From Aureibaculum sp. 2308TA14-22 (GTDB lineage: Bacteria > Bacteroidota > Bacteroidia > Flavobacteriales > Flavobacteriaceae), in assembly GCF_040538665.1 (NCBI RefSeq), contig NZ_JBEWXT010000001.1, forward strand, positions 1,204,501 through 1,268,500: a DNA stretch of 64,000 nucleotides, given 5' to 3'. A model generated the notes under the pieces. It was given only the letters and a program-made list of their open reading frames with translations, was not told the origin of the DNA and did not search any database. Numbering within the stretch: position 1 is the stretch's first letter; each line of letters opens with the position of its first letter. Shown here in pieces: positions 42,024-52,359 of the stretch. The position numbers and the translations under genes are program-made.

Positions 42024-42518
42024 TTAAGGATTAAGTATGTTTTTTAATTTAGTTTTTACTCTATTCATTTTTACCCTTGCATTTACTTCACTAATACCCA
42101 TCATTTGAGAAATTTCCTTATAGTTTTTATCTTCTAGATAGAGAAGCACCAGTGCTTTGTCAATATCAGATAATTGATAGATGGCTTTATACAATAGTTT
42201 TAATTGCTCTTCTTCTGTATCATCGTAATCAACGGATTCAATTTTAAATAAAACAGAATCAAAATTTTGTGTTTTAATTGAGCGTTTAGATTTTCTATAT
42301 AAAGTAATAGCTGTGTTCAGAGCAACTCTGTACATCCAAGTACTAAATTTAGAATCGCCCCTAAATTTTGGATAGGCTTTCCAGAGTTGAATGCTAATTT
42401 CTTGAAACAAATCATTATGAGCATCTTTATTGTTGGTATAAATTCTACATACCTTATGCACTATATTCTGATTCTCTTCCAAATCTGAAATAAATTTATG
42501 CTCTAACGCTTTGTTCAC
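42024..42518 (-). CDS. ECF-type RNA polymerase sigma-70 factor
   Basis: A 164-residue sigma factor with region 2 (LFQEISIQLWKAYPKFRGDSKFSTWMYRVALNTA) and region 4 helix-turn-helix (YKEISQMMGISEVNARVKMNRVKTKLK). No region 3 is present, as usual for the ECF group. It is the first gene of a two-gene reverse operon and is divergent from the MerR regulator of the carotenoid block. Confidence 0.94.
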   Translation of the reverse strand: MNKALEHKFISDLEENQNIVHKVCRIYTNNKDAHNDLFQEISIQLWKAYPKFRGDSKFSTWMYRVALNTAITLYRKSKRSIKTQNFDSVLFKIESVDYDDTEEEQLKLLYKAIYQLSDIDKALVLLYLEDKNYKEISQMMGISEVNARVKMNRVKTKLKNILNP

Positions 42519-42617
42519 AGTATGGTTAATTTCATTTTGTTAGTAGTTCTAACTTATACTTTGTTACAATTAATTGATAAAATTATCATGTTTTTTATAA
42601 ATAATTAAAAAAAAATG

Positions 42618-42654
42618 TATATTTGTTTAAATATTATCCAACTATGTTAAACAA
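42618..42654 (+). promoter_or_regulatory. Promoter and operator of the MerR/CarH-like gene
   Basis: TATATTTG (42618-42625) is a full -7 match. The inverted repeat TTGTTTAA (42623-42630) - 16 nt - TTAAACAA (42647-42654) begins inside the box and ends inside the first codons of the gene. The same half-sites with the same 16-nt spacer lie at the crtI promoter. A protein bound here would block transcription, so autorepression is likely. Confidence 0.75.
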
Positions 42655-43546
42655 TATTAAAACCAAATTCTCTATAAAGGATCTAGAGAATTTTACTGGT
42701 ATTAAGCCACATACCATTAGAATCTGGGAAAAGCGATACAACCTGCTTGAACCTTCAAGAACGGATACCAATATAAGGTATTATGACGAGCATAACTTTG
42801 TAAAGTTATTGAATATTAACTTGCTATATAACAATGGGTTTAAGATTTCCAAAATTGCTGAATTTTCTGAAGAAGCTTTGTTGTTGAAAGCTAAGGAAAT
42901 TATTTCTGATAAGGCATTAGAGGACGGAGCAATCAATTCTTTTAAGTTGGCAATGCTTAATTTTAATGCGGTTTTGTTTAATGATGCCTACAATAAATTA
43001 CTAGCTGAGAAGTCATTCAGACAGATATTTGTAGAAGTTTTTATTCCTTTTTTAGATCTTATAGGGTTTTTATGGCAAAGTAAATCCATAAAACCCATTC
43101 ATGAGCATTTTATCTCAAATTTAATAATGCAAAAATTGCATTCAAATATTGAGCGTAATCAAGCATCAAATTTTGTTCAAAGCGATAAAACTTTTGTATT
43201 GTATTTACCTATGAACGAAATACATGAATTGGGACTTTTATTTTTACATTATGAATTAACCATACGTGGCTATCATTCTATTTATTTAGGGCAAAATATT
43301 GACATTGAATCAGTTGAAGATGTTAAAAAACTATACGCCAAAGTACATTTTATCTCCTATTTTACGGTATCACCAAGTGAAAACGACCTAGATAGTTATA
43401 TCGAAAAGGTATATAAAGATTTGATAGATAATACGGAAAATAAATTCTGGTTTTTGGGTAAAAGAGCTATTCAATATAAGGGTGAAATTCCTTATTCAGG
43501 AATCAAAGCTGTAACTTCTCTTGAAAAAGTTTTGAAAATTATTTAG
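42644..43546 (+). CDS. MerR-family B12-type light-responsive regulator (CarH/LitR-like)
   Basis: A 300-residue regulator. A MerR winged helix occupies about 9-75 (FSIKDLENFTGIKPHTIRIWEKRYNLLEPSRT). It is followed by a helical-bundle cap with the Wx9EH signature (Trp144, Glu154-His155) and a Rossmann B12-binding fold with ExHxxG (Glu192, His194, Gly197). These are the adenosylcobalamin signatures of CarH/LitR photoreceptors, which release DNA in light. The ATG at 42644 is preferred because the upstream in-frame start falls in the -7 box. It directly precedes the carotenoid operon and shares an operator with it. Light sensing is inferred from the conserved residues. Confidence 0.9.
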   Translation: MLNNIKTKFSIKDLENFTGIKPHTIRIWEKRYNLLEPSRTDTNIRYYDEHNFVKLLNINLLYNNGFKISKIAEFSEEALLLKAKEIISDKALEDGAINSFKLAMLNFNAVLFNDAYNKLLAEKSFRQIFVEVFIPFLDLIGFLWQSKSIKPIHEHFISNLIMQKLHSNIERNQASNFVQSDKTFVLYLPMNEIHELGLLFLHYELTIRGYHSIYLGQNIDIESVEDVKKLYAKVHFISYFTVSPSENDLDSYIEKVYKDLIDNTENKFWFLGKRAIQYKGEIPYSGIKAVTSLEKVLKII

Positions 43547-43592
43547 CTATTATTTTATTTTTGTTTAATAATTTATTACTTTTGTTAAACAA
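43532..43592 (+). promoter_or_regulatory. Promoter and operator of the carotenoid-photolyase operon
   Basis: TTG (43532-43534), a 21-nt spacer and TATTTTTG (43556-43563) form a good promoter; its upstream part lies in the end of the regulator gene. The inverted repeat TTGTTTAA (43561-43568) - 16 nt - TTAAACAA (43585-43592) overlaps the -7 box and ends just before the ATG at 43594, the same geometry as at the regulator gene. Confidence 0.8.
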
Positions 43593-43593
43593 A

Positions 43594-45075
43594 ATGAAAA
43601 ACACCATAATTATAATCGGTTCTGGCTTTTCTTCACTTGCCGCTTCTTGCTACCTTTCTCAAGCCGGGTACAAGGTCACTTTACTTGAAAAAAATAGCAA
43701 CATTGGTGGTAGAGCACGTGTTTTTAAAAAAGATGGCTTTAAATTTGATATGGGTCCATCTTGGTATTGGATGCCTGATGTTTTTGAAAGTTTTTTTAAT
43801 GATTTTGATAAGAAAGCATCCGATTATTATGATTTAGAAAAATTAAGCCCTGCTTATCAGGTATATTTTGGTAAATCTGATAGCCTTGAAATAGCTGATA
43901 ACCTAACTGATATAAAAAAGACTTTTGAACAAATTGAGCCGGGCAGTGCTAAGTACCTTCAAGAATTTATTGATTCTGCAAAATTTAATTATGATGTTGC
44001 CATTAAAGATTTGGTTTACAGACCAGGAAATTCAATAGCCGAACTTATCACTCCAGTAACCATTAAAAGAGTAAATCAATTTTTCACAAGTATTAGAAAG
44101 CAGGTTAGGAAAAAGATAAAAAACAATAAACTTATTCAAATACTTGAATTTCCAGTACTATTTTTAGGAGCAAAACCAAGTAACACCCCATCCTTTTATA
44201 ATTTTATGAATTATGCTGATTTTGGTTTAGGGACATGGCATCCTAAAGGAGGTATGTATGAAGTAATTAAAGCTATGGGGAGTTTAGCGACAAATTTAGG
44301 GGTAGAAATTTTAACTGGAAAAAATGTCTCAAAAATTGTTGTTGAAAATTTTAAAACAATTGGAGTTCAGGCCGATAATACTTTATTTGAGGCTGATGTA
44401 GTTCTTAGCGGAGCAGATTATCATCATACCGAAACATTATTAGACAATCAATACAGACAGTATTCAGAAAGTTATTGGAATAAGAAAGTTTTTGCTCCTT
44501 CCTCACTACTATTTTATGTTGGTTTTGATAAAAAAATAGAGAATGTGTCACACCATACATTGTTTTTCGATTCTGATTTTGATAAACATGCTGTCGAAAT
44601 TTATGATAAACCATCATGGCCTAAAGAACCATTATTCTATGGTAATTTTCCTAGTGTAACTGATAATTCTTTTGCACCAAAAAATAAAGAAGCAGGTTTT
44701 TTTCTAATCCCAATTGCTCCAGGAATTAAGGATACACAAGAAATACGTGAAAACTATTTTAATCATATCATGGAAAGGTTTGAAAATCTCACCAATCAAA
44801 AAGTTAAAGAACACATATTATTTAAAGAATCTTATTGTATAAAAGATTTTATAGAAGATTATAATTCATACAAAGGTAATGCCTACGGTTTAGCAAATAT
44901 TTTAACGCAAACCGCATTTTTACGCCCAAAAATAAAAAGTAAAAAAGTTGATAATCTTTTTTTTACGGGTCAATTAACCGTTCCGGGACCAGGTGTGCCA
45001 CCATCACTAATTTCAGGTAAAATAGCGGCTAGTTTAATTCAAAAGCATTTTCCCAAAAGAGAAAATAATAATTAG
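43594..45075 (+). CDS. crtI: Phytoene desaturase CrtI
   Basis: A 493-residue FAD-dependent desaturase that converts phytoene to lycopene. The dinucleotide motif IIIIGSGFSSLAASCYLSQAG is at the N-terminus, GGRARVFKKDGFKFDMGPSWYW follows, and the C-terminus has the CrtI signature TGQLTVPGPGVPPSLISGKIAA. GSGFSS replaces the usual GxGxxG with Ser at the last position, common in flavobacterial CrtI as I recall. The ATG at 43594 is set by the promoter and operator just upstream. It is the first gene of a run of closely spaced genes to 51602. Confidence 0.95.
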   Translation: MKNTIIIIGSGFSSLAASCYLSQAGYKVTLLEKNSNIGGRARVFKKDGFKFDMGPSWYWMPDVFESFFNDFDKKASDYYDLEKLSPAYQVYFGKSDSLEIADNLTDIKKTFEQIEPGSAKYLQEFIDSAKFNYDVAIKDLVYRPGNSIAELITPVTIKRVNQFFTSIRKQVRKKIKNNKLIQILEFPVLFLGAKPSNTPSFYNFMNYADFGLGTWHPKGGMYEVIKAMGSLATNLGVEILTGKNVSKIVVENFKTIGVQADNTLFEADVVLSGADYHHTETLLDNQYRQYSESYWNKKVFAPSSLLFYVGFDKKIENVSHHTLFFDSDFDKHAVEIYDKPSWPKEPLFYGNFPSVTDNSFAPKNKEAGFFLIPIAPGIKDTQEIRENYFNHIMERFENLTNQKVKEHILFKESYCIKDFIEDYNSYKGNAYGLANILTQTAFLRPKIKSKKVDNLFFTGQLTVPGPGVPPSLISGKIAASLIQKHFPKRENNN

Positions 45076-45078
45076 AAT

Positions 45079-45921
45079 ATGAAGCAACAATTATATCATA
45101 AAGTATCTAAAGATTGCAGTAAGTTGGTCACAAAAGCTTACAGCACTTCTTTTACGTTAGCGGTAAAGATGCTGGCTCCATCAATAAGAGATGCCATTTA
45201 CAGTATCTATGGTTTTGTACGTTTTGCTGACGAAATCGTAGATACATTTCATGACTACGACAAGTCACATTTATTGGCTGAATTTGAAAAAGACTATTAT
45301 AAGGCATACCAAGAGGGTATAAGCTTAAACCCAATACTTAATGCATTTCAATTAACCGTAAAAAAGTATAATATTGATGATGATTTAGTGCAGTCTTTTT
45401 TAAAAAGTATGAAATGGGATTTGGAAAAAACAGATTACACTAAAGAGGAATATGAAGCGTATATTTATGGTTCGGCCGACGTGGTAGGGCTCATGTGTTT
45501 GAAAGTATTTGTAAATGGAAACTTAAAAAAATACAACGAACTTAAAGAATCTGCCATGATGCTAGGTTCGGCATTTCAAAAAGTTAACTTTTTGAGAGAT
45601 TTAAAAGATGATCTTGAAGTGTTAAATAGATCTTATTTTCCGAATGTTCATTTTGAAAATTTAGATTTTGAAGCAAAACAAAAAATAATTAAAGAAATAG
45701 ACGAAGATTTCAGCGTAGCATATAAAGGTATTTTAAATTTGCCGAAAGAAGCAAAATTCGGTGTTTACACAGCGTATATTTATTACAAAACCTTGTTGAA
45801 TAAACTCAAAAGAACACCCTCTGAACAAATTTTAAATACGAGAATCAGGGTGTCTAACCCTCGTAAAATAAGTCTATTGGCTAAATCTTTTGTAACTTAC
45901 AAATTAAATTTAATTAGATAA
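45079..45921 (+). CDS. crtB: Phytoene synthase CrtB
   Basis: A 280-residue squalene/phytoene synthase that condenses two geranylgeranyl diphosphates. The first Asp-rich motif DEIVD is at 51-55 after FVRFA, and the second region reads FQKVNFLRDLKDDLEVLNRSYFP. It starts 3 nt after crtI and its stop shares a base with the crtZ start (TAATG). Confidence 0.95.
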   Translation: MKQQLYHKVSKDCSKLVTKAYSTSFTLAVKMLAPSIRDAIYSIYGFVRFADEIVDTFHDYDKSHLLAEFEKDYYKAYQEGISLNPILNAFQLTVKKYNIDDDLVQSFLKSMKWDLEKTDYTKEEYEAYIYGSADVVGLMCLKVFVNGNLKKYNELKESAMMLGSAFQKVNFLRDLKDDLEVLNRSYFPNVHFENLDFEAKQKIIKEIDEDFSVAYKGILNLPKEAKFGVYTAYIYYKTLLNKLKRTPSEQILNTRIRVSNPRKISLLAKSFVTYKLNLIR

Positions 45922-46370
45922 TGATGGTACTTTTATATATAGCGATTACATTGTTAACTTTTGTGTGTATGGAAGCCGTAACTTGGTTAACTCATAGATT
46001 TGTTATGCATGGCTTTATGTGGTATTTTCATGAAGATCATCATCAACCTAAATATCAAAACACTTTTGAAAGAAATGATATTTTCTTTGTCATTTTTGCT
46101 ATACCGAGCATATTACTTTTTTATTTTGGAGTTGATGGCGGAGTAAATTATTTATTCTTTATTGGATTAGGGGTTTTACTATATGGTATTTCATATTTCT
46201 TGGTGCATGATGTGCTGATACACCAGCGATTTAAGTGGTTTAAGAAAACTAAAAATAAATACCTAATAGGGTTGAGAAAAGCACATAAAGTGCATCATAA
46301 ACATTTAGGAAAAGAAGATGGTGAATGCTTTGGTATGTTGTTTGTCCCATTTAAATATTTTAAGATATAA
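45921..46370 (+). CDS. crtZ: Beta-carotene hydroxylase CrtZ
   Basis: A 149-residue membrane di-iron hydroxylase of the fatty-acid hydroxylase superfamily that adds 3-hydroxyls to beta-carotene, giving zeaxanthin. The histidine clusters HRFVMHG, HEDHHQP, HDVLIHQR and HKVHHKH are all present. About four membrane helices. Overlaps crtB by 1 nt and is followed immediately by the cyclase gene. Confidence 0.94.
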   Translation: MMVLLYIAITLLTFVCMEAVTWLTHRFVMHGFMWYFHEDHHQPKYQNTFERNDIFFVIFAIPSILLFYFGVDGGVNYLFFIGLGVLLYGISYFLVHDVLIHQRFKWFKKTKNKYLIGLRKAHKVHHKHLGKEDGECFGMLFVPFKYFKI

Positions 46371-47072
46371 ATGTCGCTCTACCTCATATTAAATTTAGCT
46401 TCATTAAGTATTCCACTTTTATACAGTTTTGAAAAAAAGAGAATGCATTACATACAATGGTGGAAAGAAGTTTTTTTATCCATAATAATCGTAGCTACTT
46501 TTTTTATAATTTGGGATATTATTTTTACTGAAAATGGTGTTTGGGGCTTTAACGATAATTATTTGGTTGGCATTGACATATTGGGTTTACCTATTGAAGA
46601 ATGGTTGTTCTTTATCTGCATTCCTTACGCAAGTATTTTTATCCATTATGCTTTTCAATATTTTTTTCCGAACATCTCATTATCAATAAAGGTATCTAAT
46701 TTTATTACTGTTAGCTTAGTTTTACTATTGTTAATAGTGGCAATTCTAAATTTTGATAAAGCCTATACTTTTTATAATTATATATTTTTAGCTTCACTTT
46801 TAATATACGCCTACATTACTAAAAATAAGCAGTTGCCTATTTTTTATATTACGTTTTTAATAATTCTAATTCCTTTTTTTATAGTCAACGGAATCCTTAC
46901 TGGAAGTTTTATTGAAGATCCGGTAGTATGGTATGACAATAGCGAAAATTTAGGAGTCAGATTAGGCACAATTCCCATAGAAGATGCAGGTTATGCTTTT
47001 ACAATGCTTTTTGGGAGTATTATACTAATAGAGAAATTTAAAGCATCATCATTATTTTCAAAAAAAAAATAA
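46371..47072 (+). CDS. Lycopene cyclase, CrtYcd-type fused membrane form
   Basis: A 233-residue protein with about seven hydrophobic helices made of two similar halves, each with the PxE(E/D) signature of heterodimeric cyclases: PIEE at 74-77 and PIED at 202-205. This is the CrtYc-CrtYd fusion found in Bacteroidetes, unrelated to the flavoprotein CrtY. It should cyclise lycopene to beta-carotene, the substrate of CrtZ, although the gene order places it after crtZ. Starts directly after the crtZ stop. Confidence 0.9.
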   Translation: MSLYLILNLASLSIPLLYSFEKKRMHYIQWWKEVFLSIIIVATFFIIWDIIFTENGVWGFNDNYLVGIDILGLPIEEWLFFICIPYASIFIHYAFQYFFPNISLSIKVSNFITVSLVLLLLIVAILNFDKAYTFYNYIFLASLLIYAYITKNKQLPIFYITFLIILIPFFIVNGILTGSFIEDPVVWYDNSENLGVRLGTIPIEDAGYAFTMLFGSIILIEKFKASSLFSKKK

Positions 47073-47081
47073 AGCACAGGT

Positions 47082-48503
47082 ATGAAAATATTAATAACAG
47101 GAACTACAGGATATATTGGCAAACGGTTAATTCCACAGTTATTGGAATTAAATCATAGTCTTGTCTGTTGTGTTAGAGATATTGGCAGAGTACCAGAAGT
47201 GGTAAAAAACAATAAAAACATATCTTTAATTGAAGTAGATTTTTTAAAGGAAGACACGCTTCAAAAAATACCCAAAGATATAGACATAGCTTATTATTTA
47301 ATTCATTCTATGTCCTCAACATCCAAATCCTTTGAAAAATTAGAATATAAATGTGCTATAAATTTTAAACATTATATTGAGGATACTGCAGTTAAACAAG
47401 TTATTTATCTAAGTGGAATTGTAAATGACGATAGTTTATCAAAACATCTAGCTTCTAGAAAACAAGTAGAAGAAACTTTAAAGTCTGATACCTATGCCTT
47501 AACCACTTTTAGAGCTGGTATAATAGTAGGTAGTGGTAGTGCATCATTTGAAATTATTAGGGATTTAGTTGAAAAACTCCCATTGATGATTGTTCCGAAA
47601 TGGGTAAAAACAAAATCGCAATATATTGCCATAAGAGATGTGTTAGCGTTTCTTTCAAGAGCAATAGACAAGTCAGAATTGTATAATAAGTCTTACGATA
47701 TTTTTGGACCAGAAGTACTTTCTTACAAAGAAATGATGTTGCAGTTTGCTGAAGTTAGAAAGTTTAAACGCTATATATATTCTGTTCCGGTCATGACTCC
47801 TAAATTATCATCATACTGGCTGTATTTTATTACCGCTACATCTTATAAATTGGCAACAAGCTTGGTTGACAGTATGAAAGTAGAGGTTATTGGAAAGTCA
47901 AGCAACATAAATGAAATAGTAGGTGTCAGTCCTATTACATATAAAGAGGCGGTACAAAAAGCTTTTATAAAAATTGAGCAAAATAGTAGCATTTCTAGCT
48001 GGAAAGACTCTTTTGTTAGTGGTAGATTCAATAAAAAATTATCGCAGTATATTGAAATTCCACAATACGGCTGTTTTAAGGATATAAAAAAAAGACAAAT
48101 AATAAATGAATCAAAAACGATAAAAAAAATTTGGTCAATAGGCGGTGAAAATGGATGGTACTATGGAAATATGTTATGGAAAATAAGAGGACATCTAGAT
48201 AAAGTTGCAGGTGGCATTGGCCTAAGACGTGGAAGAACCCATCCATCAAAATTAAGTGCTGGAGATTCTCTCGATTTTTGGCGGGTATTATATGCTGATA
48301 AAAAAGAAAAACGGTTGTTATTATTTGCGGAAATGAAGCTTCCAGGTGAGGCATGGTTAGAGTTTACCATTGTCAAAAACATTTTATATCAAAGAGCTGT
48401 TTTTAGACCCAAAGGCTTGTTAGGAAGACTGTATTGGTATAGCGTTTGGCCATTTCACGGGTTAATATTTAATGGTATGATTAATAAATTGGTTAAAGCT
48501 TAA
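47082..48503 (+). CDS. SDR-type NAD(P)-binding protein with DUF2867 domain
   Basis: A 473-residue protein. The N-terminal extended SDR/NmrA fold shows TGTTGYIGKRLIPQLLE and the YLSGIVNDDSLSKHLASRKQVEE region. From about residue 325 a DUF2867 domain follows (GWYYGNMLWKIRGHLDKVAGGIGLRRGR, AEMKLPGEAWLEF). The two-part architecture is known; substrate is not. Its place between the cyclase and a short SDR gene suggests a role in pigment modification or photo-oxidative response, an inference. Confidence 0.88.
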   Translation: MKILITGTTGYIGKRLIPQLLELNHSLVCCVRDIGRVPEVVKNNKNISLIEVDFLKEDTLQKIPKDIDIAYYLIHSMSSTSKSFEKLEYKCAINFKHYIEDTAVKQVIYLSGIVNDDSLSKHLASRKQVEETLKSDTYALTTFRAGIIVGSGSASFEIIRDLVEKLPLMIVPKWVKTKSQYIAIRDVLAFLSRAIDKSELYNKSYDIFGPEVLSYKEMMLQFAEVRKFKRYIYSVPVMTPKLSSYWLYFITATSYKLATSLVDSMKVEVIGKSSNINEIVGVSPITYKEAVQKAFIKIEQNSSISSWKDSFVSGRFNKKLSQYIEIPQYGCFKDIKKRQIINESKTIKKIWSIGGENGWYYGNMLWKIRGHLDKVAGGIGLRRGRTHPSKLSAGDSLDFWRVLYADKKEKRLLLFAEMKLPGEAWLEFTIVKNILYQRAVFRPKGLLGRLYWYSVWPFHGLIFNGMINKLVKA

Positions 48504-48519
48504 TTAATAAAATAGGTAC

Positions 48520-49203
48520 ATGAAAAAAATAATAATTATTGGAGGAAGCAAAGGTATTGGTAAAGCTATTCTACAAACTTTACTAGAAAAGTCTGAAGTT
48601 ATAAATATAAGTAGAACACCTTCTGACGTTAATCATAAAAATTTAAGTCAATACCAATGCAATGTGTTAGAAGATGAATTGCCAAAAATAGCGGAAGTAG
48701 ATTCTTTAATTTATTGCCCAGGGAGTATCAATCTAAAACCAATTTCAAGATTGAATTTAGAAGATTTTAAAGATGACTTTAATATTAATGTTTTAGGTGC
48801 AGTACGCGTTATTAAAAAGTATTTGCCTCAATTAAAAAAAGGAAATAATCCTTCGGTATTGCTTTTTAGTACAGTAGCAGTAAAATTGGGTATGCCTTTT
48901 CATGCCAGTATTGCAGTAGCTAAGGGTGGAGTAGAAGGGCTCGTGAAATCGTTAGCGGCCGAGTTAGCACCAACTGTAAGGGTAAATGCTATAGCTCCTA
49001 CGGTTACTGATACAGGTTTGGCTGATAAGCTATTACGTAATGATAAAATGAAAGAAAAAATGATTGATAGACATCCATTGAAAAAGTACTTAAACCCACA
49101 AGAAGTTGCAGATATGGCTGAATTTTTAATATCAGATAAGACCGCTTCAATATCTGGGCAAATTTTTGAAATGGATTGCGGCATAGTCTCGCTTAAAATT
49201 TAA
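48520..49203 (+). CDS. Short-chain dehydrogenase/reductase
   Basis: A 227-residue classical-type SDR with IIGGSKGIGKAI at the cofactor site and a catalytic region LLFSTVAVKLGMPFHASIAVAKGGVEGL, in which the Lys is kept (AKGG) but the usual YxxxK Tyr is replaced (SIAVAK). The missing Tyr makes ordinary SDR catalysis doubtful. The C-terminal SGQIFEMDCG is typical of the family. Part of the same operon; substrate unknown. Confidence 0.88.
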   Translation: MKKIIIIGGSKGIGKAILQTLLEKSEVINISRTPSDVNHKNLSQYQCNVLEDELPKIAEVDSLIYCPGSINLKPISRLNLEDFKDDFNINVLGAVRVIKKYLPQLKKGNNPSVLLFSTVAVKLGMPFHASIAVAKGGVEGLVKSLAAELAPTVRVNAIAPTVTDTGLADKLLRNDKMKEKMIDRHPLKKYLNPQEVADMAEFLISDKTASISGQIFEMDCGIVSLKI

Positions 49204-49206
49204 ATT

Positions 49207-49668
49207 ATGAAGTACAGTTTAATAGTAGTCGTCTTTTTAGTTATCAACTTTGGAGCCTTGGCCATTGGAAGTTGGTTAATGGATAATGGCCCCCAAACAG
49301 ATTGGTATTTAAGTTTAAATAAAGCACCATGGACACCACCAGGATGGGTTTTTGGAGCGGCTTGGACAACAATAATGATTTGTTTTTCAATATATATGGC
49401 ACAACTATACAGCAATGATAAATCGTTCATGGTAATAGCTTTATTTATAGTACAAGTAGTTTTGAACGTCAGTTGGAATTTTGTGTTTTTCAATCAGCAT
49501 AACGCCGGTTTTGCACTCATAATAATAATCTCACTAACACTTTTATTGATATACTTTCTAATTGGTTTTTATGACCAAATGAAATTGATAAGTTTATTAC
49601 TAGTTCCTTATGTTTTATGGCTTTTAATTGCCACATCACTCAATTATTATGTTTATGCAAATAACTAA
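49207..49668 (+). CDS. tspO: TspO/MBR-family tryptophan-rich sensory protein
   Basis: A 153-residue five-helix membrane protein. KAPWTPPGWVFGAAWT is the WxPPGWVFxxxW signature, and VVLNVSWNFVFFNQHNAGFALI is the conserved helix 3-4 region. TspO proteins bind porphyrins and other tetrapyrroles and respond to light and oxygen in other bacteria, which fits its place in a carotenoid-photolyase operon. Starts 3 nt after the SDR gene. Confidence 0.95.
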   Translation: MKYSLIVVVFLVINFGALAIGSWLMDNGPQTDWYLSLNKAPWTPPGWVFGAAWTTIMICFSIYMAQLYSNDKSFMVIALFIVQVVLNVSWNFVFFNQHNAGFALIIIISLTLLLIYFLIGFYDQMKLISLLLVPYVLWLLIATSLNYYVYANN

Positions 49669-49678
49669 ATGAAATAGT

Positions 49679-49849
49679 ATGTTCAACTTATTTAAGAAAA
49701 AATCAGAAGTAGAAAAGTTAAATGATAAGTATAAAAAGCTTTTAGCAGAATCACATCGTTTATCTACAACCAACCGAAAAGCGAGTGATACAAAATACGC
49801 AGAAGCAGATAAAATTTTAAAACAAATTGAAGCTTTAAAAAATAAATAA
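49679..49849 (+). CDS. Small charged coiled-coil protein (Lacal_2735-like)
   Basis: A 56-residue ORF in the gap between tspO and the SRPBCC gene: it starts MFNLFKKKSEVEKL and ends KQIEALKNK. It is strongly charged and helical, with an LSTTNRKASDTKYAEA core that I recall from a family of tiny flavobacterial proteins called Lacal_2735. The stop abuts the next ATG exactly and tspO ends 10 nt upstream, so it lies squarely within the operon. Function is unknown. Confidence 0.85.
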   Translation: MFNLFKKKSEVEKLNDKYKKLLAESHRLSTTNRKASDTKYAEADKILKQIEALKNK

Positions 49850-50320
49850 ATGGCATTTTATCAATTACATAAAGAGCAGAAAATCAATTGTACCATTGAT
49901 GAAATTTGGGATTTTATTTCGTCACCTGCCAATCTTAAGGAAATAACTCCAGATTATATGGGTTTTGATATAACGTCTCAAAACCTTCCTGAAAAAATGT
50001 ATGAAGGTATGATTATATCATACAAAGTAAGCCCGTTGTTGGGTATTAAAACTACTTGGGTAACTGAAATAACGCATGTTAGGGATAAGCACTATTTTGT
50101 TGATGAACAACGTGTTGGCCCTTATGCATTATGGCATCATCAACATATTATAGAGCCCATTGAAGATGGCGTTTTAATGAAAGATATTGTTAGCTACCAA
50201 CCACCATTTGGGTTGCTGGGAGCGATTGCCAATAGTTTGATTATAAAAAACAAGTTAAAAGAGATATTTGATTACAGAACTAAAGCTGTTGAACGAAAAT
50301 TCGGAATTTATGACGAATAA
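49850..50320 (+). CDS. SRPBCC-family (ligand-binding) protein
   Basis: A 156-residue protein with a polyketide-cyclase/SRPBCC pattern: IDEIWDFISSPANLKEITPDYMGF, TWVTEITHVRDKHYFVDEQRVGPYALWHHQHIIEP and the helix after GLLGAIANSLIIKNKLKEIFDYR. Such folds bind hydrophobic ligands. Proteins of this type are often next to photolyase genes, as here. It overlaps the photolyase start by 11 nt. Confidence 0.88.
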   Translation: MAFYQLHKEQKINCTIDEIWDFISSPANLKEITPDYMGFDITSQNLPEKMYEGMIISYKVSPLLGIKTTWVTEITHVRDKHYFVDEQRVGPYALWHHQHIIEPIEDGVLMKDIVSYQPPFGLLGAIANSLIIKNKLKEIFDYRTKAVERKFGIYDE

Positions 50321-51602
50321 CGAGATTTCAATTTTTTGGTTTAGACGTGATTTACGCTTAGAGGATAATGTAGCTTTAAATACTGCCTTAGAGAGTGGAT
50401 TGCCTGTACTACCTATTTTTATTTTTGATGATGATATTTTAGAAGATTTACCAAAAAATGATGCAAGGGTAACTTTTATTTATGATTCATTGAAGAATAT
50501 TCATTTACGACTTAAAAAGAAAAATAGTTCTTTATCTATTAAAAAAGGGAAGACTTTTGAAGTGTGGACAGAGCTAATATCAGAATTTAACGTAAAAAAA
50601 GTTTTTTTCAATAGGGATTATGAACCTTATGCCATTCAAAGAGATAAAGAAATCAGCACATTATTAAAATCAAACTCAATTGAAGTTTCTGATTATAAAG
50701 ATCAGGTTATCTTTGAACAGAATGAGATTGTAAAGGCAGACGAAAATCCTTACACCGTTTATACACCTTATAAAAATAAGTGGTTAGAAAAATTTAAACC
50801 GGAAAAATTGATACTAGCTAATAGTGAAAAAGTACAGTGGAATCAATTCTATACTTACGAAACGCTTTTCCCAAAGTTGGAGAGTATTGGTTTTAAAAGG
50901 AGCAAGCAAAAAGTGTATTCTCCTGATTTAAGCGTCGTATCAGAGTACGATAAATACCGTGATTTTCCTGCTGAAAACGGAACTTCATATTTATCACCTC
51001 ACTTAAGATTTGGCACTGTAAGTATCAGAAAATTAGTAAAATTAGCTTTAGAAAAAAATGCTACTTTTTTAAGTGAATTAATTTGGCGTGAGTTTTTTAT
51101 GCAGATACTATTCCACTTTCCTAAAGTGATAACCAATAACTTTAAATCAAAATATGATGGTATAAAGTGGAGAGACAATCAAGCTGATTTTAAACGCTGG
51201 TGCAATGGTACAACGGGTTATCCTTTGGTAGATGCTGGTATGCGTGAACTTAACGAAACCGGTTATATGCACAATAGGGTACGAATGGTTACTGCCAGTT
51301 TTTTATGTAAACATTTATTGATTGATTGGAAATGGGGCGAGGCCTATTTTGCCGAAAAATTGTTAGATTATGAATTATCATCTAATAACGGTAATTGGCA
51401 ATGGGCAGCAGGTACAGGCTGTGATGCCGCACCGTATTTCAGGATTTTCAATCCCACCACGCAATTAAAAAAGTTTGATAAGGATTTAAAATATACAAGA
51501 AAATGGATTCCCGAATTCGACTTTGGCTATCCAGAACCTATGGTTGACCACAAATTTGCTAGAGAAAGAGCGTTATCGGGTTATAAGATAGGGTTACAAT
51601 AA
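50310..51602 (+). CDS. DNA photolyase/cryptochrome (class I type)
   Basis: A 430-residue photolyase that repairs UV pyrimidine dimers with blue light. ISIFWFRRDLRLEDN starts the antenna-binding alpha/beta domain; the FAD domain shows SPHLRFGTVSIR, ELIWREFFMQIL, RWCNGTTGYPLVDAGMREL and the NNGNWQWAAGTGCDAAPYFRIFNP signature. The ATG at 50310 gives the standard N-terminus; the longer frame from 50268 lies within the SRPBCC gene. Last gene of the light-regulated operon; a hairpin follows. Confidence 0.94.
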   Translation: MTNNEISIFWFRRDLRLEDNVALNTALESGLPVLPIFIFDDDILEDLPKNDARVTFIYDSLKNIHLRLKKKNSSLSIKKGKTFEVWTELISEFNVKKVFFNRDYEPYAIQRDKEISTLLKSNSIEVSDYKDQVIFEQNEIVKADENPYTVYTPYKNKWLEKFKPEKLILANSEKVQWNQFYTYETLFPKLESIGFKRSKQKVYSPDLSVVSEYDKYRDFPAENGTSYLSPHLRFGTVSIRKLVKLALEKNATFLSELIWREFFMQILFHFPKVITNNFKSKYDGIKWRDNQADFKRWCNGTTGYPLVDAGMRELNETGYMHNRVRMVTASFLCKHLLIDWKWGEAYFAEKLLDYELSSNNGNWQWAAGTGCDAAPYFRIFNPTTQLKKFDKDLKYTRKWIPEFDFGYPEPMVDHKFARERALSGYKIGLQ

Positions 51603-51690: not shown

Positions 51691-52359
51691 TTATACAGAC
51701 CCCTCAGAAATCAACTTCTCAATTTTACCATCGTCCCTAATTTTATATTGCGTTTGAATAGTTTTGGTTAAAACCTGCTTTTCATCCTCGGGATCAAAAC
51801 AAGATTCGTTATCTACAATAGTAATTTTATAAGTTGTGTCAATAGCAAATTGTCTATCCCAACTACAATCGTAATTTATGCCACCAGCCACTATTAGCTT
51901 ATCGATTACGTTGTGATTTTCATCAAAGGTTTGGATTTCAAAATAGGGTAGGGTCTCGGCTTCTTCCGTGTTTTGATAGGTAAAAATTAAAACTTTTACA
52001 TTATCAATATCTGGTAAACGTTCATAAAAGAAACCTTTTCCAATAAAAGGGTAGTTTTTACTTTCCATAATCATTAATTCTTCATCGTTTGAAAAAGTAG
52101 TAGAATCTGAAAAGTAGGTATTTAACTTGGCATCTTTATCAATCTTATTTCTAGTTTCAAAAGCTTCCAAGGTATAATGGTAATCAAAAACAGAGTCTTT
52201 ATCAAAAGAAAAGGCATACGGTAAATTTTGTACGGTAATACTATCAAAATCGTTTATAGAAATTAAGTCTTTAACCTTTGTATCTGTTGCATTTTGTTTT
52301 TTACAAGCAGTAAAGGCTGAAACAACAGTGATAATTGCAATAAGACTTTTTTTAAGCAT
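51691..52359 (-). CDS. Lipoprotein of unknown function
   Basis: A 222-residue protein with a signal peptide and lipobox AFTAC (Cys19). The mature part is acidic, with no motif I recognise and no obvious repeats; YFEIQTFDENHNVIDKLIVAG resembles a beta-sheet-rich domain. It is 37 nt downstream of fabV on the same strand but unlikely to be functionally tied to it. Function is not assigned. Confidence 0.8.
   Translation of the reverse strand: MLKKSLIAIITVVSAFTACKKQNATDTKVKDLISINDFDSITVQNLPYAFSFDKDSVFDYHYTLEAFETRNKIDKDAKLNTYFSDSTTFSNDEELMIMESKNYPFIGKGFFYERLPDIDNVKVLIFTYQNTEEAETLPYFEIQTFDENHNVIDKLIVAGGINYDCSWDRQFAIDTTYKITIVDNESCFDPEDEKQVLTKTIQTQYKIRDDGKIEKLISEGSV

Follow-up and report, generated by a model that had tools for sequence, protein, structure and literature searches.

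The inverted repeat TTGTTTAA-N16-TTAAACAA is, on comparative evidence, almost certainly the operator of the CarH-like MerR regulator encoded beside it in Aureibaculum sp. 2308TA14-22. In the analysed window (64,000 nucleotides, contig positions 1204501-1268500 of the source genome), this 32-bp element is found at the promoter of the regulator gene itself and at that of a gene run extending from crtI to a DNA photolyase. We propose that the regulator probably represses both promoters in the dark and releases them in the light by means of adenosylcobalamin (AdoCbl). Operator, owner and targets are supported by computation, and from the sequence data we infer the use of AdoCbl, the role of light, the sign of control and the oligomeric state.

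Two operator copies in the window

Exact matches to the pattern occur at two places only in the window (Table 1), and, as a preliminary description of this DNA had stated, both are perfect inverted repeats with the same half-sites and the same 16-nt spacer. They are real and far beyond chance: the exact operator appeared in 0 of 100 dinucleotide-preserving shuffles of the window, about 0.0004 exact sites would be expected from base composition in the window and 0.022 in a genome, and the third-best N16 place in the window, at position 52294, has three mismatches. The right half-site touches the start codon at both genes, as had also been reported, yet on opposite sides of the ATG. At the regulator gene it directly follows ATG 42644-42646 and lies within the gene, and at crtI it ends one base ahead of ATG 43594.

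Table 1. Features of the regulator and crtI-to-photolyase region (window positions)
Feature	Position	Strand	Remarks
ECF sigma gene	42024-42518		divergent from regulator
-7 box TATATTTG of regulator gene	42618..42625	+	overlaps left half-site; same position in 48/55 sequences
Operator O1, TTGTTTAA-N16-TTAAACAA	42623..42654	+	regulator gene; spans from -7 box into coding sequence
CarH-like MerR regulator, 300 aa	42644..43546	+	MerR HTH, B12-binding_2 helical bundle, divergent B12 Rossmann-like C-terminus
Operator O2, TTGTTTAA-N16-TTAAACAA	43561..43592	+	at crtI
-7 box TACTTTTG of crtI	43577..43584	+	abuts right half-site; 40/42 sequences
crtI, phytoene desaturase	43594..45075	+	NF058655 CrtID, above cut-off
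crtB, phytoene synthase	45079..45921	+	SQS_PSY
Putative carotenoid hydroxylase	45921..46370	+	no Pfam or NCBIfam match
Lycopene cyclase	46371..47072	+	
NAD-binding epimerase-like and DUF2867 protein	47082..48503	+	
Short-chain dehydrogenase	48520..49203	+	
TspO/MBR protein	49207..49668	+	
Protein ahead of photolyase	49850..50320	+	no Pfam match
DNA photolyase	50268..51602	+	last gene of presumed crtI operon

Within the run, we take the putative hydroxylase gene to be crtZ, from its position, and the product encoded ahead of the photolyase is presumably an SRPBCC-like protein. A small open reading frame (49679-49849) between the TspO and SRPBCC-like genes makes the run contiguous. Elsewhere, similar DUF2867 genes have an operator of their own (L094, L107, L112, L009 and L010; likeness judged by eye), as do similar SRPBCC units (L086, L106, L109, L067 and L138). 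A separate operator for the window's photolyase unit was considered and rejected, the best place in 49668-49855 having five mismatches. Inclusion of the divergent ECF sigma gene in the circuit is likewise not supported: a close relative occurs only in L008-L011 (three Aureibaculum loci and L011) among 78 loci. Its product is 27% identical to the operator-linked ECF factor of other families, and no operator with fewer than four mismatches was found in 42500-42625.

The regulator protein

The start at ATG 42644 agrees with that of the relatives, which begin MNN or MLNN. The best PDB matches, covering residues 9-224, are Thermus CarH 5c8d (E 4.9e-8) and 3whp (E 4e-8), the latter titled probable transcriptional regulator, which we take to be a Thermus CarH sequence as well. 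In an alignment of 79 rows, the R, W, E and R of the RxWExRY recognition helix are each present in 76 of 76 rows with letters at those positions. For the C-terminal motifs (n=75; L052, L054 and L083, whose frame was lost at an upstream stop, and the contig-edge fragment L084 have no letters there), the signatures that had been noted in the window's regulator are near-invariant: W-x9-EH at residues 144-155 (W144 74/75, E154 75/75, H155 70/75) and ExHxxG at residues 192-197 (E 75/75, H194 74/75, G 73/75). The L081 homologue has lost the Trp and both His, and hence the pocket. Of the homologues in other families, all 14 that are long enough to read keep W, EH and ExH, as does that of the window (fragment L143 left out).

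Other positions depart from the classic pattern. The residue after the Trp, which corresponds to His132 of Thermus CarH, is Gln in 69/75 and His in 1/75; the Ser of the SxT motif is replaced by Tyr in 69/75, with the Thr kept in 73/75; and in the GG motif the first Gly is universal (75/75) and the second is lost, mostly to R, S or K. The remainder of the classic B12 motif (x41 SxT/V x22-27 GG) is thus not kept in full. In a Pfam survey of an alignment of 49 among the 74 homologues listed, a MerR domain (PF13411/PF00376) was recognised in 49/49 and the helical bundle (PF02607) in 48/49. The B12 Rossmann domain (PF02310) was recognised in 1/49 and falls below Pfam detection in 48/49, although a C-terminus with ExHxxG is present. 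The regulator scores 56.1 bits against the NCBIfam CarH equivalog NF052513 (cut-off 400). The tandem 11-bp direct-repeat operator that is a CarH trait is not found here either; the subsite fits but the arrangement is inverted. As it departs from CarH in the B12 motif taken as a whole, in its family-model score and in the layout of its operator, the regulator should not be filed as CarH proper, although it likely works like CarH with respect to light and AdoCbl.

Enrichment and spacing across Flavobacteriaceae and the class

Among 149 family genomes, 97 carry the exact N16 pattern, with 203 sites in all, and the reversed control yielded 3. The N15 variant gave 5 sites (reversed control 5) and the N17 variant 11 (reversed control 0), three of which (G119, G077 and G087) adjoin the regulator gene. 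The half-sites are nearly palindromic and might be taken for direct repeats. In the same genomes, the half-site was found as a tandem 11-bp direct repeat 11 times, counting both strands (reversed control 4), with 7 of the 11 in a genome that has no regulator (G023). The direct-repeat reading was rejected because tandem repeats are not enriched and only the inverted N16 arrangement is. The N15, N17, direct-repeat and all reversed-control counts were summed by eye from tables. In a set of 1.49 Mb made up of the window and 78 related loci, inverted half-sites occurred once with N14, once with N15, 31 times with N16 and 4 times with N17, and all other orientations at most twice at every spacer up to 40; this set was fetched via the regulator gene and is biased to regulator targets, whereas the genome-wide set is free of that bias. 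Class-wide, 150 of 395 genomes carry an exact site, and the reversed control matched once in each of 5 genomes. With up to two mismatches allowed, the window's genome yields 29 matches versus 25 for the reversed control, so weaker sites are uncallable by sequence alone.

No published description of the operator was found in the open literature, subscription papers lying mostly outside the search. The string TTGTTTAA does occur in PMC6692529, within a listed gene fragment, and the accessible part of a review gave no Bacteroidota operator (PMC9614035).

Orthologous promoters and a codon footprint

We examined regulator-crtI neighbour pairs with usable sequence (n=68, window included), allowing up to two mismatches at crtI, up to three at the regulator gene, and spacers of N14-N17. 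A site was found at crtI in 44/68 pairs (0.4% of shuffled windows), at the regulator gene in 66/68 (63 at up to two mismatches; 6.1% of shuffled windows) and at one or both promoters in 67/68 (6.5% of shuffled windows). With a limit of two mismatches at both promoters, 65/68 pairs still have a site. The preliminary description had named absence of the repeat from orthologous promoters as grounds for dismissing the idea; this check did not dismiss it, only a single pair, L043, having no site at either promoter. In 23 of the 24 pairs in which crtI has no site of its own, the regulator gene has one, and the median gap between the two genes is 36.5 in pairs of this kind versus 52.5 elsewhere; one operator may therefore serve both genes.

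Selection on the DNA word itself is visible in codon usage. Among 75 usable regulator genes, 50 begin [M/L]NN by our reading. The first Asn codon, which lies under the operator, is AAC in 50/50 of these, the second in 10/50, and the remaining Asn codons of these genes in 293/1128 (26%; p 1e-28). Since amino-acid constraint cannot prefer AAC over AAT, the DNA word must be under selection.

Each arm of the operator is an 11-bp CarH-type subsite: TTGTTAAACAA fits the consensus nnnnTnnACAn. The two subsites are inverted, with ACA pointing outward, and 21 bp apart centre to centre, which places both on the same side of the helix, two turns apart. In the regulator promoters the consensus letters are fixed (T26 1.00, A29 1.00, C30 0.98, A31 1.00). 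Of the n positions, 27 changes (G 0.80), where the start codon forces changes, and A28 stays fixed.

Promoter geometry

The -7 box of Bacteroidota promoters is TAnnTTTG, the form used in the preliminary description as well. At regulator promoters the box begins 5 bp ahead of the operator in 48/55 sequences, window included, and at crtI promoters TAnnTTTG begins at operator position 17 in 40/42. A box 5 bp ahead of the crtI operator occurs in 3/42 sequences; the window has one (TATTTTTG, 43556-43563), at a position that is not conserved, and it was rejected as the crtI -7 box on that account. The earlier claim that at both genes the -7 box contains the start of the left half-site thus holds for the regulator gene and fails for crtI, whose box adjoins the right half-site. 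Similarly, the operator architecture that had been called identical is the same in half-sites and spacer, but the placement of the -7 box differs between the two genes. The crtI operator ends 0-3 nt ahead of the aligned start in 36/42 sequences, and the crtI message should consequently be nearly leaderless. A protein on either operator would cover the -7 box and the start site, which suggests repression by occlusion. The shuffles behind the promoter-position and regulator-crtI pair comparisons preserve base composition only.

Operator targets elsewhere

The window's genome has two further exact sites outside the window, one ahead of a TetR (TetR_C_23)-ABC1 kinase-flavin reductase operon (L005:7137-10220) and one ahead of the gene for a protein of 865 aa that has five FAS1 domains; a site with one mismatch precedes the gene for a 326-aa FAS1 protein. 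Operators precede FAS1 proteins at L006:6732-7777 and L006:15707-18370. At L006:6732-7777, L089, L090, L091 and L096, the site lies between the FAS1 gene and a divergent gene that we take, by its look, to be mnmA/trmU. A like tetR gene is preceded by the site in Lutibacter (L016, L029, L047, L058 and L064) and Arenibacter (L032) loci; these tetR genes and the DUF2867 proteins of L094, L107 and L112 were recognised by eye.

Targets were surveyed at one site per genome, in 29 family loci among 97 and 30 class loci among 150 site-bearing genomes. The family loci comprise crtI (9), FAS1 proteins (5), photolyase units (3), DUF2867 proteins (3), the regulator (1), a flavin reductase (1) and seven others with no obvious light link. 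The half-site pair is accordingly present in related genomes near crtI, merR and photolyase genes, the three kinds of target that the preliminary description had proposed to search. In the class loci, which represent eight other families, the operator precedes an ECF sigma gene in 15, a DUF4397 protein gene in 5, crtI in 2, a regulator gene in 2, pterin synthesis genes (PTPS-FolE or FolE) in 2, an SRPBCC unit in 1 and a rhodopsin gene in 1, with 2 lacking an assignment. The ECF genes other than those of L119 and L148 were assigned by tblastn to L119, and DUF4397 in L125 and L131 by tblastn to L122. ECF genes preceded by the operator (L119-L148, e.g. L119:1501-2060) often lie near CarH-like, photolyase, FolE or crt genes, and a light-induced sigma cascade is likely in these families. 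At L144:1501-2342 an exact operator ends 48 bp ahead of a bacteriorhodopsin-like gene (PF01036), which suggests that rhodopsin is under the same control in that one lineage. An exact operator at L110:1501-1532 lies between two divergent genes, by their look presumably those of endonuclease III and a Bcp-type peroxidase, plausible photo-oxidative damage genes.

Discussion

Earlier work on this DNA had assigned the repeat to the adjacent regulator as its operator, positioned so that both the regulator gene and the crtI-to-photolyase run could be repressed. Both proposals are upheld by co-occurrence with the regulator gene, by presence at orthologous promoters and by the synonymous-codon footprint. 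With regulator presence called at E<=1e-10, exact sites occur in 95/120 regulator-bearing family genomes versus 2/29 without the regulator (Fisher 3.5e-13). This leaves 25/120 regulator-bearing genomes lacking an exact site; 9/120 have distant regulator homologues only (31-39% identity), and 2 of these 9 have sites. The site could instead belong to another regulator, the likeliest candidate being the TetR-family protein, with the CarH-like gene merely one of its targets. In the window's genome and several relatives the tetR gene is indeed preceded by the site, and the sole two regulator-less genomes with sites, G079 (81% complete) and G147 (73% complete), which are two of the three genomes with TetR and no regulator, both encode the TetR. 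G079 has five exact sites and about 610 contigs, and its regulator gene, which was not found, may fall in a gap. Co-occurrence nevertheless leads us to reject TetR as the owner: sites are found in 23 of 28 genomes that have the regulator and no TetR (42 sites) and in 0 of 26 that have neither, genomes without regulator or TetR being assigned by exclusion (9 and 34, respectively, absent from the search listings). Ownership by TetR is further countered by the site at the regulator gene's own promoter, by the match of the half-site to the CarH consensus, and by the proximity of a MerR homologue, no more than 1.5 kb from the site, in 15 of the 30 loci of other families; we regard it as highly improbable. 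Hardly more credible is an activator in the light state that, like a classical MerR protein, would bind between -33 and -7 at crtI and distort and activate the promoter. The crtI operator does extend over the spacer that precedes the -7 box and stops shortly beyond the box, and classical MerR proteins bind near that position. At the regulator gene, however, the same operator extends downstream from the -7 box, a position at which such activation is implausible, and the CarH and class II LitR proteins described in the studies consulted are repressors (PMC9304148, PMC9758184).

A stronger objection concerns the cofactor. The regulator may own the operator and still be independent of B12, its C-terminal domain being degenerate and light reaching it via a partner, or another stress being sensed. 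We consider this unlikely, though well within reach. It would account for the divergent Rossmann domain, the Tyr in place of Ser, the lost second Gly of GG and the Gln in place of His132, and class II LitR with its short LOV protein provides a precedent for light sensing via a partner (PMC9758184). In two 99% complete genomes, G064 and G008, whose regulators have the signature residues, no adenosyltransferase (PF01923 or PF02572) was found, which counts against strict AdoCbl dependence unless the cofactor is imported. Against independence from B12, the Trp, the Glu-His pair and the lower-ligand His are near-invariant, including in the class-wide homologues, and PF01923 is commoner with the regulator (116/120 versus 21/29 genomes; Fisher 2.4e-4), a comparison confounded by genome reduction and incompleteness. 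The window's genome encodes one PF01923 cobalamin adenosyltransferase, and none of its three PF02310 matches lies in the regulator. Residues W131, E141, H142 and H177 have been described as key to AdoCbl binding, and at the His132 position SasPcob has Gln, while CtMerR (Arg) is light-responsive without bis-His ligation (PMC11796333). The H132A variant of Thermus CarH was mostly tetrameric in light, an earlier report having found disassembly (PMC10442372). Taken together, these data suggest that Gln at this position is compatible with a light response but implies a different final step. Use of AdoCbl and a light response by the regulator are predicted as likely.

Based on these considerations, we propose the following hypothetical mechanism, in which (i) in the dark, a dimer or tetramer of the regulator with AdoCbl bound would bridge both subsites of the operator, at the regulator gene as well as ahead of the crtI-to-photolyase run, covering the -7 box and start site and blocking RNA polymerase; (ii) in the light, the Co-C bond would be broken and the oligomer would loosen; (iii) after release, carotenoid, photolyase and other photoprotection genes would be expressed, with autoregulation resupplying the repressor. 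Beyond the window, the TetR-ABC1-flavin reductase operon and two FAS1-protein genes would use the same operator. Dark repression and light release are likely on this evidence. The role assigned to light is suggested by the carotenoid, photolyase, pterin and rhodopsin genes among the targets, and upon illumination the switch probably allows genes for protection from the sun to be expressed.

The proposed system shares features with several known light regulators and differs from each. In LitR-LitS of Streptomyces and CarQ of Myxococcus, an ECF sigma gene is under light control; the operator ahead of ECF genes in other families resembles these cascades, whereas in Flavobacteriaceae it lies at crtI and other structural genes. 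With myxobacterial CarH/CarA it has in common the control of carotenoid promoters by plastic operators. The inverted repeats proposed for CarA have been suggested to be readable as direct repeats, whereas those described here are inverted with strict spacing, and direct repeats are unenriched. The class I LitR CarH proteins of Thermus thermophilus and Bacillus megaterium are alike in their MerR HTH with an RxWERRY-type helix, four-helix bundle, W-x9-EH and ExHxxG motifs, crt adjacency and 11-bp subsite. The present regulator is unlike them in lacking the His132 equivalent and in its altered SxT and GG. Characterised CarH proteins bind 11-bp repeats of the form nnnnTnnACAn in tandem, three or four direct repeats making up a class I operator (PMC9304148), in contrast to the two inverted subsites found here. 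Class II LitR of Pseudomonas (PplR/PmlR) is similar in having photolyase and folE in its light regulon and two subsites with a fixed spacer, but its sites are TGTACA-N12-TGTACA, it has only the helical-bundle B12 domain, and a LOV partner senses light (PMC9758184).

We hypothesise, at roughly even odds, that Bacteroidota possess their own class of LitR/CarH photoreceptor repressor. It would be marked by inverted CarH subsites and a B12 pocket that has Tyr, a lost Gly and no bis-His trap. Its light regulon would take in carotenoids, photolyase, pterin cofactor synthesis, rhodopsin and FAS1/DUF4397 surface proteins, with an ECF cascade outside Flavobacteriaceae. Such a repressor would be the missing light regulator of flavobacterial pigmentation. 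In one Chryseobacterium, pigmentation and crt genes are reported to be light-induced, and the authors, who could find neither car nor lit genes, put forward the idea of a new regulator (PMC7064467). Published mining of B12 photoreceptors began from IPR006158 (PMC11796333) and may have missed these proteins, since 48 of the 49 surveyed homologues have no Pfam B12-binding match. The system would offer a test case for CarH-like light responses that dispense with the bis-His step, and another for the way in which a single DNA-binding domain and a single subsite can serve both tandem and inverted operators. For a large group of pigmented bacteria, our analysis provides a candidate regulator, a letter-exact operator and a list of targets.
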